Below, piece by piece: positions 14,936 through 20,253 of a DNA stretch of 38,140 bases. Both the position numbers and the translations under genes were made by a program. Below the pieces are notes generated by a model. It saw nothing but the letters and a program-made list of their open reading frames with translations. It was not told the origin of the DNA and did no database searches. The DNA lies in the IMG/VR virus record IMGVR_UViG_3300025435_000046, positions 1-38,140 of that record; one strand, 5' to 3'. The stretch is from a virus. Numbering within the stretch: the first letter of the stretch is position 1; every line of letters begins with the position of its first letter.

Positions 14936-14951
14936 GTTGCTCTTAAACTTT
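14933..14951. promoter_or_regulatory. Inverted-repeat operator candidate between divergent promoters
   Basis: AAAGTT (14933-14938) and AACTTT (14946-14951) form a 6-bp inverted repeat with a 7-base spacer. It overlaps the upstream element of the leftward promoter and the spacer of the rightward promoter. The Cro/YdaS-like regulator gene lies 366 bases downstream, so this is the natural candidate binding site. Binding is inferred, not shown. Confidence 0.45.
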
Positions 14952-14966
14952 GTGTTGTTGTAGAAT
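14937..14966 (+). promoter_or_regulatory. Rightward promoter of the regulator transcript
   Basis: A weak -35 TTGCTC (14937-14942), an 18-base spacer and TAGAAT (14961-14966) predict a start at about 14973. Transcription would run through the tandem structured RNA units before reaching the Cro-like gene at 15318. Confidence 0.55.
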
Positions 14967-14971
14967 CTGTG

Positions 14972-15145
14972 CAACACCAAGACGCATGAGGATTGGCTAG
15001 TCAGGGATGCCCAAGCAGATACATACAACTGGTCTGCCCAAACAGGAATACCCACCAGTCCTCAGTCGTGTTGGTGGACAAGTGCATGGTTTTCCTTGTA
15101 AGTTACTGGGCGCTTGAACGGGGTGGTTCCCGGTTGCCACCAACA
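14972..15145 (+). ncRNA. Structured leader RNA unit 1: long hairpin plus cloverleaf-like module
   Basis: First of two tandem units. The first part is a hairpin whose arms are GAGGATTGG (14988-14996) and CCAGTCCTC (15055-15063), extended outward by mismatched pairs including ACACCAA with TTGGTG. The second part (15069-15145) is closed by 9 bp, TGTTGGTGG with CCACCAACA. It holds three small hairpins: ACAAG/CTTGT, AAGT/GCTT and CGGG/CCCG. TTGGTG can join either part, so the folds may compete. No convincing protein is encoded here. Confidence 0.55.
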
Positions 15146-15303
15146 ACTAACACGCATGAGGATTGGCGGCGAGTGAGGACTCAGCCTTAATGATGGGCCA
15201 ATCTGAGCCACACCAGTCCTCAGTCGTGTTGGTGTGAGGGCCGGTTTGATTCCGGTGTGATCTAGGTGACTAGGTGGGTTCGACTCCTACAACACCAACA
15301 ACT
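15146..15303 (+). ncRNA. Structured leader RNA unit 2: long hairpin plus tRNA-like cloverleaf
   Basis: Second tandem unit. CGCATGAGGATTGG (15153-15166) repeats the 14983-14996 sequence exactly, and CACCAGTCCTCAGTCGTG with TTGGTG (15211-15234) repeats 15053-15076. The module 15227-15300 is closed by TGTTGGTGT with ACACCAACA; the ninth pair changes from G-C in unit 1 to T-A, a compensatory change. Inside are CCGG/CCGG, CTAG-GTGA-CTAG and a T-arm-like GTGGG-TTCGACT-CCTAC (15274-15290). It resembles a tRNA but lacks a normal D-loop and anticodon arm. Confidence 0.55.
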
Positions 15304-15317
15304 TATTGGAGAAAAAT

Positions 15318-15524
15318 GTGACTTTAGAAGAGTATTTCAAAGACGAACCACGGGGGGCAAAGGTGGAGATGGCTCAGTATTTGGGCATCTCTGATGTTTG
15401 GCTGTCCATGCTGATTCGCGGCAAGCGCCGTGCGTCCGCAGACCTGTGTGTGCGCATTGAAAAAGCAACTCAAAAATTGGTCAAGCGCAAAGATTTGCGT
15501 CCTGATTTGTTCAGCAAGGTGTGA
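15318..15524 (+). CDS. Cro-like regulator, YdaS family
   Basis: 68 residues from GTG 15318, which has GGAG 6 bases upstream; the ATG at 15316 is followed at once by a stop. It is a single helix-turn-helix domain (AKVEMAQYLGISDVWLSMLI, with RGKRRAS next), ending KDLRPDLFSKV, the C-terminal signature of YdaS/Cro-like proteins of lambdoid phages. It probably represses one or both divergent promoters at 14.9 kb. No CI-type partner repressor is visible in the window. Its stop codon forms part of the next promoter. Confidence 0.8.
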   Translation: MTLEEYFKDEPRGAKVEMAQYLGISDVWLSMLIRGKRRASADLCVRIEKATQKLVKRKDLRPDLFSKV

Positions 15525-15530
15525 TATAGT
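15522..15530 (+). promoter_or_regulatory. Extended -10 promoter at the end of the regulator gene
   Basis: TGATATAGT (15522-15530) is an extended -10 that includes the regulator's stop codon. No good -35 is seen. The predicted start near 15537 is where the folded RNA at 15537-15635 begins, which supports the prediction. Confidence 0.45.
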
Positions 15531-15536
15531 TTTTTA

Positions 15537-15635
15537 ACGCTTGGCGGCGTTTGGGTAGATCGAGGCCGGGATTCTGACAGTACCCACTGTTCCGCCAACG
15601 CCGAAAGGTGAGAATCCCGACCTCGATTTTTTTTT
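15537..15635 (+). ncRNA. Pseudoknot-forming small RNA or attenuator ending in a terminator
   Basis: A 17-bp stem with one mismatch joins 15559-15575 (ATCGAGG then CCGGGATTCT) to 15611-15627 and is followed by nine T residues (15627-15635), a typical terminator. Upstream TTGGCGG (15541-15547) can pair with CCGCCAA (15592-15598), and TGGGTA (15552-15557) with TACCCA (15581-15586). The loop of that hairpin contains the 5' arm of the terminator, so the two folds interlock as a pseudoknot. ACAGT/ACTGT (15577-15590) competes. The ParB gene's SD follows the T run directly, so this could be a terminated small RNA or a read-through switch. Confidence 0.6.
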
Positions 15636-18727: not shown

Positions 18728-19641
18728 GTTTCATTGCTTTTGCACGCGCTCATGGCATCGACATTGATCCGTCGAAACTTTATTCGTCGGACAAGATTCG
18801 TCGCACTGGCACGGTGGACAAGCCCCGCTCAACCAATGGCGCATTTTTTTGGGACGGCCAGCGTGGCTGGGTGATGGATTGGAGCGGCGAGGCTAGGGTG
18901 ATGTGGTACGAAGACCCCAATGCCAAGCCTTGGACAGATCAGGAAAAGCGCGAGTGGGCGCTCAAACGCCAGACAGCCAACGCCGACAAAGATCGGTCGT
19001 ATGAGTTGGCCGCCGAACGCGCCATGATCACTTTGCGAAATGCCAAGCCCAGCACACACCCCTACCTTCAGATCAAGGGCTTCCCTGACGAGAAGATGTT
19101 GGTTTTAGACAACAAGCTGTTGATTCCCATGCGCAACGTGGTGAACAACAAGATTCAAGGCTACCAGTCAATCTACTGGGACGCCCCGAACATGAAGTAC
19201 GAAAAGAAGATGCTGCCCGGCATGAGAGCCAAGAACGCTGTGTTCTACATGGGCAACAAAGACGCTTTAGAGACTTGGTTGGTCGAAGGGTATGCCACAG
19301 GCCTATCCGTGCGCGATGCGCTGCGCAGCATGGGTTCTAAGGCTTCTGTGGTGGTGTGCTTCTCAGCATCAAACATGGTGCAGGTGGCGGATCAGATCAA
19401 AGGCCAGCGCTACGTCTTTGCGGACAACGACCCAAGTAAAAGTCATCCCGATACTGGCGCAGAGGTTGGTAAGACGGGCGAGAAGGCGGCAATTCAGACT
19501 GGCCTGCCTTGGACGATGGCCGACACCGAGGGCTGGGACGCCAACGACCTGCACAAAAAGCTAGGTTTGTGGCTGGTTGCAAAAAAAATCATGGATTTAC
19601 GCAAAAAGGTGTTGACAGGGGGCGTTGCGACCGCTCTATAA
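18724..19641 (+). CDS. Toprim-domain DNA primase-like protein
   Basis: 305 residues from ATG 18724 (ATGA overlap). An N-terminal region with GAFFWDGQRGWVMDWSGEA (39-57) resembles the start of phage and TraC-type primases, but there is no Cys zinc ribbon. The Toprim core shows the catalytic Glu in TWLVEGYATGLSVRDAL (Glu188) and the Asp pair in YVFADNDPS (Asp234, Asp236). A C-terminal WDANDLH follows, as in related proteins. It would make RNA primers or act with the helicase encoded upstream. Its stop codon lies inside a consensus -10 box. Confidence 0.82.
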   Translation: MSFIAFARAHGIDIDPSKLYSSDKIRRTGTVDKPRSTNGAFFWDGQRGWVMDWSGEARVMWYEDPNAKPWTDQEKREWALKRQTANADKDRSYELAAERAMITLRNAKPSTHPYLQIKGFPDEKMLVLDNKLLIPMRNVVNNKIQGYQSIYWDAPNMKYEKKMLPGMRAKNAVFYMGNKDALETWLVEGYATGLSVRDALRSMGSKASVVVCFSASNMVQVADQIKGQRYVFADNDPSKSHPDTGAEVGKTGEKAAIQTGLPWTMADTEGWDANDLHKKLGLWLVAKKIMDLRKKVLTGGVATAL

Positions 19642-19642
19642 T
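19612..19642 (+). promoter_or_regulatory. Consensus sigma70-type promoter at the end of the primase gene
   Basis: Perfect TTGACA (19612-19617) and perfect TATAAT (19637-19642) are separated by 19 bases, slightly longer than optimal. The -10 overlaps the primase stop. The predicted start is at about 19649, immediately before a non-coding folded region. Confidence 0.6.
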
Positions 19643-19648
19643 TCAAAC

Positions 19649-19776
19649 CGTTGTCGTCGAAAGCAACAAAAAAATTAGGCCGCTTACACATGCGATTCCG
19701 CCTTACCAAATAACCTCTGTGGGAGGGATATTTGTTAAGGTTTCGACCGGAATTGCAGTTGTAAGCGGCTTTTTTA
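19649..19776 (+). ncRNA. Small RNA: long nested hairpin with terminator tail
   Basis: Four nested stems form one rod: GCCGCTTACA with TGTAAGCGGC (19679-19688 / 19760-19769), TGCGATTCCG with CGGAATTGCA (19691-19700 / 19748-19757), CCTTACCAAAT with ATTTGTTAAGG (19701-19711 / 19730-19740), and CCTC with GAGG. A 7-base bulge TTTCGAC lies between the middle stems. Six T residues follow at once. A7 before the stem means it may also stop leftward transcripts. With its own promoter it looks like an independent phage small RNA; terminator of the primase operon is the minimal reading. Confidence 0.6.
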
Positions 19777-19860
19777 TTGCCCTCGACGCCAGCCGTACTC
19801 CGCACGATAGCAAGCACCCCAGTCGTGGTGGCGCGGAAGGAAAGCGTACACGGTATGCAA

Positions 19861-20022
19861 CCGTGTGATTGATGATGGTGAATGCGCAGGCTGATGCGCA
19901 ATTTGCTTTGGTAAGGGTGAGGTTGTTTTCGGTCCACCACCGTTTAGGGTAGCGTCGGGAAACTGGACGTACCGAAACCTCAAGCTGGAGATCAGTACCA
20001 GCCACCATCATCAATCGCATGG
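19861..20022 (+). ncRNA. Multi-branched RNA domain closed by a 20-bp stem
   Basis: CCGTGTGATTGATGATGGTG (19861-19880) pairs along its full length with CACCATCATCAATCGCATGG (20003-20022), two of the 20 pairs being G-T. Inside are a TGCGCA/TGCGCA hairpin (19883-19900), a long arm GAGGTT/AACCTC continued by CGGT/ACCG and CCA/TGG, and GCTGG/CCAGC (19984-20002). No SD-preceded ORF is present. It may be a structural RNA, part of a larger RNA spanning 19777-20180, or a replication origin. Class unknown. Confidence 0.5.
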
Positions 20023-20120
20023 GCTAGGGGGCAGTTCCCGAACAATCCGTGCGGCTGGTCGAATCATCACGCCGGGGGGTCAACGCAAGTTGCCATGATG
20101 ATGCTCACTGAGCGGTGAAG

Positions 20121-20177
20121 CACCCAACCTCCTCCCTTACCCCCATCCTCGTGGGGTAGGGGGGGTCTTTGGGTGAA
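20121..20177. other. GC-rich hairpin at the end of the non-coding region
   Basis: CACCCAA (20121-20127) pairs with TTGGGTG (20169-20175), and the inner TACCCC pairs with GGGGTA around CATCCTCGT, giving a very stable stem. Only TCTTT occurs on its 3' side, so termination is possible but not clear. A GNRA-type CAAC-GCAA-GTTG hairpin lies at 20081-20092. The rest of 20023-20253 shows only an A7T5 stretch at 20225-20236. Confidence 0.4.
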
Positions 20178-20253
20178 ATCAAGGGAGAGGGGGGAAAACC
20201 TCATCCAGCGCCAAAAACCCCTGCAAAAAAATTTTTGCGCAAACTCCATTTCC

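Follow-up and report, generated by a model that had tools for sequence, protein, structure and literature searches.

Tandem units of a putative modular phage noncoding RNA class with exchangeable domains on conserved scaffolds

In the viral DNA stretch analyzed here (38,140 nt, IMG/VR record IMGVR_UViG_3300025435_000046; referred to as the window), a widespread kind of phage noncoding RNA that had not been labelled before is present in two copies. They form an array of two tandem units at positions 14972-15303, between a promoter-like site and a YdaS/Cro-like regulator gene. In each unit, a hairpin, H, is followed by a domain, T, which is closed by GTTGG..CCAAC; between the units, the outer arms of H are nearly the same and its interior differs. 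While RNA families are usually defined by a conserved core, in this case conservation lies in the scaffold, and it is the payload that is swapped across unrelated phages. The favored reading, which is put at a little less than an even chance, is that of a modular array of phage noncoding RNAs, the exchangeable domains of which would act in trans on host targets, either as decoys or as inhibitors. The components of the array and its flanks are the following:

14937-14966, plus strand: sigma-70-like promoter, TTGCTC (14937-14942), 18-nt spacer, TAGAAT (14961-14966)
14977-15074, plus strand: scaffold hairpin H1, arms CCAAGACGCATGAGGATTG / CAGTCCTCAGTCGTGTTGG, exchangeable insert at 14996-15055
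15070-15144, plus strand: 3' domain T1, closing stem GTTGGTGG/CCACCAAC and an outer T-A pair, inner fold uncertain
15147-15232, plus strand: second scaffold hairpin H2, arms CTAACACGCATGAGGATTG / CAGTCCTCAGTCGTGTTGG, insert unlike that of H1
15228-15299, plus strand: 3' domain T2, closing stem GTTGGTGT/ACACCAAC and an outer T-A pair, tRNA-like
15318-15524, plus strand: YdaS/Cro-like regulator gene (PF15943), directly 3' of the array

Two tandem structured units had been proposed in the initial annotation of this DNA, and they are borne out by the repeats as well as by the folds. The 24-nt 3' arm CACCAGTCCTCAGTCGTGTTGGTG is repeated with 100% identity at 15053 and 15211, and the two copies of the 22-nt 5' arm at 14976 and 15146 are 91% identical, in agreement with the description of near-identical outer arms around different insides. 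The predicted folds are better than those of shuffled sequences, with z values of -3.6 for H1, -4.3 for H2, and -4.5 for the full 332-nt array. The ninth closing pair of T is, as described, G-C in one unit and T-A in the other. The three-arm module that had been assigned to both units is well predicted in T2 (z -2.8), but not in T1, where the three inner arms reach a z value of only -1.2 and a different fold is preferred; because of this poor prediction, the three-arm description is firm for unit 2 only. Transcription is predicted to start around 14973, at the 5' boundary of unit 1. The TAGAAT box scores well in the scan designed for this analysis, while a stricter consensus scan did not list the promoter. 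At its 3' end, the array stops about 10 nt ahead of the ribosome site of the YdaS/Cro-like gene. The regulator transcript probably has the array at its 5' end, and the predicted start agrees with the leader originally envisaged, which would extend for about 345 nt to the gene at 15318.

The H-scaffold is described by the consensus arms YYAASACGCATGnnnATTG and CAGTnnnCAGYCGTGTTGG, which enclose a variable insert and are followed by the 3' domain closed by GTTGG..CCAAC; both units of the window are exact examples of it. A search for further copies in other phages, as had been recommended, was successful. Both H arms together are found as an exact pattern in 6 IMG/VR contigs and the 3' arm alone in at least 120, and for 178 of 181 fuzzy matches of the 3' arm in the fetched loci the 5' arm lies upstream. 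The pairings are kept in these relatives, with compensatory changes, so that the objection raised in advance by the initial annotation, namely that relatives might fail to preserve them, does not apply. Among 174 distinct arm pairs, nearly all stem positions are standard-paired to 94-100%, S opposite G being the exception with 55%, and the three central pairs of the stem undergo free compensatory change. G·T is found 129 times in these stems and A·C 4 times; this excess of the former points to an RNA of the transcribed strand. In an alignment of 28 divergent units, 11 of the 17 arm pairs show double changes, 56 cells are changed on both sides compared with 15.2 expected from shuffling, and sliding the partner by a single base abolishes the covariation signal. 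Since most rows were fetched through exact arm patterns, the search itself accounts in part for the invariance of the arm that was searched for; no such constraint applied to the opposite arm or the tandem neighbors. Coding function of the H units was rejected, the insert lengths spanning all three frames with no frame kept, and matches in three further genomes (L180, L182, and L184) were judged from their sequences to be due to chance. A third recurrent scaffold with exchangeable inserts, GGAAAGCGGATGCTG...CAGCGAGTAC, is seen in L001, L002, L146, L149, and other loci.

Also the TTGGTG motif was said to be able to pair with more than one partner, which was taken to suggest switching. For its TTGG, two partners are indeed kept. 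One is the 5' YYAA, each position of which is paired in 94-99% of 174 units, with changes at both Y positions being mostly from C to T. The other, the 3' CCAA in the closing stem of T, occurs in 42 of 44 internal units and has a covarying extension (19 with the own partner versus 9.8 with swapped ones). Since both partners are retained, a folding switch may exist.

The inserts, in turn, differ widely. Clustering of 180 distinct H units yields at least 86 unrelated insert classes, 42 of which are singletons, and the Chao1 estimate is 128. Of the multi-member classes, 43 out of 44 are each seen with more than one T domain, and some inserts recur in different slots or on different scaffolds. For the four inserts of the window, no convincing relatives were detected among the loci compared with them. 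Replacement at a given locus is seen upon comparison with two relatives of this phage, L085 and L181 (the latter from a Burkholderiales MAG), both of which possess the same YdaS/Cro-like gene as the window with other units in front of it, one in L085 and two in L181, and with inserts differing from those of the window. The array promoter is conserved in L085. In BLAST alignments, homology between the window and L085 is lost within the 5' arm, at 14995, and restarts at 15295. On the 3' side of the YdaS gene, at 15525-15632, a further structured element is located, which is built from a 20-bp inverted repeat with T9 behind it; its long-stem sequence differs in L085 and L181, and the surrounding short motifs GGCGGCGTT, CCGCCAAC, and CCGAAAGGTGAG are kept.

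In many T slots, a second scaffold is found, termed M module, which is composed of a closing stem, the hairpin AATGCGCAGGCTGATGCGC, an insert, and the hairpin GCCGGAGATCAGCACCGGC. The two hairpins have complementary loops, GCTGAT and ATCAGC. Across 53 aligned M frames, 96.5% of the cells are paired, covariation is observed at 8 of 8 pairs of the closing helix, and double changes occur in 165 cells versus 38. The loop-loop helix is 97% paired; its first pair shows the double change from GC to AU in 7 frames and G·U in 11. One M module is present in the window itself:

19612-19642, plus strand: second noncoding locus, promoter-like site TTGACA..TATAAT, 19-nt spacer
19868-20015, plus strand: M module, closing stem ATTGATGATGGTG/CACCATCATCAAT, 84-nt insert
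19881-19899 and 19984-20002, plus strand: hairpins of this module with the loops GCTGAT and ATCAGT, respectively, predicted to kiss

With its closing stem and two hairpins with complementary loops, the module at 19868-20015 is a regular representative of M. The spacer of the promoter-like site exceeds the limit of the consensus scan, which did not list it. The surrounding second noncoding locus (19612-20180) is gene-poor and contains a terminator-like inverted repeat at 20121-20175.

M is a far commoner scaffold than H. Its first hairpin is found in at least 120 viral contigs, in 224 sequenced phage records, and in 1014 of 5426 complete E. coli genomes, and no RNA annotation covers the M copies among the matches listed. 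An intrinsic terminator follows within 250 nt on the 3' side in 18 of 98 modules, in 17 of these at a distance of 6-60 nt, compared with 27 of 490 control stretches, and in an O157 prophage M stands directly behind a TTGACA/TACATT promoter-like site. M copies placed in this way look like free-standing RNAs. As for the H units, -10 boxes (score of at least 6, located 6-20 nt 5' of ACGC) precede 14% of the first units and 2% of the internal ones. A noncoding multi-module array of about 1.5 kb that ends at tRNA-Gly is found in the cultured isolate Polynucleobacter sp. UK-Kesae-W10 (L183, 400-1900). Among the sampled genomes of the class of this isolate, only 2 of 369 contain M, and the element therefore appears to be mostly phage-borne.

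Several copies reside in well-known phages. In phage P1 (L312), an M module lies right behind tRNA-Asn and tRNA-Thr, and the P1-like plasmid p1303_95 has an H and M array of about 0.9 kb after the same two tRNA genes (L307, 1410-2310). One M RNA is common to P1, the lambdoid phage mEp460, and Klebsiella phage IME207 with 97-99% identity and recurs in the O157 prophage; near-identical M RNAs are distributed over P1, lambdoid, and lytic phages. Further units are present in BASEL coliphages, and in the O157 prophage and mEp460 M is located between the repressor and the early genes. A protein-only reading of the P1 region, in which a lipoprotein (Plp) CDS overlaps the RNA in the P1-like RCS47 and JL22, was rejected; as the structure covaries, the conservation of the region is better explained by RNA than by Plp. 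In coliphage Bas80 (L303, 1216-1339), a weak match to permuted tmRNA (27.9 bits, cut-off 47) is seen 5' of an H-M unit. Taken across phages, H and M units are found alone with their own terminator, inside tRNA clusters (P1, KP591P1, ST4, and SOVA965), or before unrelated genes. With this distribution, a leader specific to a Cro-like gene finds no support as the chief explanation of such units.

The vicinity to tRNA genes is strand-biased. A tRNA gene lies within 2 kb in 29 of 243 loci, and of the 77 unit-tRNA pairs at this distance 75 are on the same strand and 2 on opposite strands. In L053 and L112, the T slot is occupied by a real tRNA-Gly and tRNA-Asn, respectively. A T-arm with a TTCRANY loop is found in 15 of 421 inserts, compared with 0.12 in shuffled sequences and none on the reverse complement; being present in about 4% of the inserts, it leaves most classes unexplained by tRNA mimicry. 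Mimicry of a CAU anticodon arm, hinted at by the inserts of P1 and O157, was dismissed (1 versus 0.2, not significant). The M insert of L080 is a truncated tRNA with D-arm and T-arm, a shortened middle, and no proper anticodon arm. T2 of the window carries the T-arm GGGTTCGACTCC (GTGGG-TTCGACT-CCTAC), to which its weak match to the tRNA-Sec model (22.4 bits, E 0.087) is ascribed, and is not classified as a tRNA. ARAGORN detects no tRNAs in the window, and comparison of the window region with sequenced phages returns tRNA T-arms only (E 0.04-0.5).

In line with the statement that the units match no known RNA class, the search of the window against Rfam gave no family at the gathering score, with sub-threshold matches only, and the window was not hit by the covariance models of GOLLD and ROOL. 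These two RNAs form cages via kissing loops and have variable linkers that sometimes hold tRNAs (PMC12286853); they share with the present arrays the origin from phages or prophages, the position near tRNA islands, the kissing loops, and the tRNA-holding variable regions. In contrast to them, the class in the window is made of short units in repetition, the constant scaffolds of which carry exchangeable inserts drawn from an open set. The prophage sRNA STnc100 (RF02076) has a sub-threshold match in the P1 array, in its last unit (33.9 bits with a gathering score of 47, E 9e-4), and reaches 39.1 bits near the array of ST4; it has no match in the window, the units of which are not assigned to it. 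Proteo-phage-1 (RF03044) matches with 63.7 bits directly 5' of the H-M unit of Pseudomonas phage PS-1 (L305, 1264-1343) and weakly in SOVA965. This separate 82-nt motif does not occur in the window, whose units do not belong to it, and is probably a neighbor or a further module of the arrays. Judging from these placements, both small Rfam families are probably neighbors or relatives of the arrays. The stable RNAs rnaC and rnaD of T4 are likewise encoded beside a phage tRNA cluster, and rnaC has a tRNA-like T-arm GGGTTCGAATCCC; inspection by eye revealed neither an H nor an M scaffold, and they were not accepted as members. An anti-hemB match in L013 was discarded as being 5' of the array, sub-threshold, and terminator-driven. 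No description of the modular system was found in the literature searched, with bioRxiv and most subscription journals lying outside this search.

According to the preferred model, the window region would be an array of two cassettes belonging to a modular class of phage noncoding RNAs, in which the constant helices, that is, the H arms, the GTTGG..CCAAC stem, and the M kissing frame, would serve as structural sockets presenting exchangeable RNA domains. The array would be transcribed early, from its own promoter. Phages would recombine and replace the displayed domains, each of which would bind a different host RNA-binding target in trans as a decoy or inhibitor, with tRNA- or translation-related factors and RNA-sensing or RNA-cleaving defences being candidate targets. 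The turnover of cassettes would then track changing host targets. Of this model, the covarying structure, the strand, the modularity, the swap at the locus, and the distribution are demonstrated, and the start of transcription, the action in trans, and the type of target are inferred. Trans action is suggested by the promoters at unit edges in a subset of arrays, the free-standing copies, the identical modules in unrelated contexts, and the exchange of payloads; decoy or inhibitor action on host RNA-binding factors would be the most economical reason for the large insert repertoire. A more far-reaching version, possible and held with greater reserve, is a combinatorial RNA display, in which well over a hundred interchangeable domains on common scaffolds would constitute an arsenal directed at host factors or defences and evolving via cassette exchange, not via protein-coding genes.

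Among the other explanations, a cis-acting leader, in which the units would govern how the early transcript is elongated, terminated, stabilized, or translated, with TTGG swapping partners, comparable to the put RNAs of HK022 or to a tandem riboswitch, would suit the array of the window, which lies between promoter and YdaS/Cro-like gene and runs directly into the latter. The same position in L085 and L181, that of M ahead of the early genes in the O157 prophage and mEp460, and the two mutually exclusive partners of TTGG are consistent with it. This explanation is nevertheless unlikely, as units are also found before terminators and within clusters of tRNA genes, contexts without any relation share identical RNAs, and a cis device does not need 86 or more insert classes. 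About equally improbable is an RNA-only assembly after the manner of GOLLD and ROOL, with kissing loops and strand exchange oligomerizing the units into particles and the inserts as cargo or lining. The covariation of the M kissing loops would fit this idea, as would the shared niche near phage tRNAs and the kissing-loop cages (PMC12286853); it is opposed by the failure of the GOLLD and ROOL models to match at the gathering score, by the small size and varying number of units, and by the ability of the kissing partners to pair inside one molecule.

The real tRNAs in the T slots of L053 and L112 and the strand shared in 75 of 77 pairs would also be expected of a spacer or processing module of tRNA operons, the scaffold stems of which separate and mature stable RNAs. 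With tRNAs within 2 kb of only 29 of 243 loci, and none in the window, such a role is very unlikely. A selfish DNA cassette that uses the arms as recombination sites and has no RNA function would explain why the outer arms are near-invariant and swapping is frequent. It is rated a slim chance, since G·U pairs are found without A·C pairs, compensatory changes are double-sided, units share the strand of neighboring tRNAs, and promoters are placed at the unit edge.

Returning to the modular array with trans-acting domains, near-identical unlabelled M RNAs are carried by P1 and mEp460 as well as by many prophages of E. coli, which makes their function testable in laboratory phages. The role of the noncoding RNAs beside phage tRNA clusters, a question dating from the first phage stable RNAs, thereby now becomes testable.
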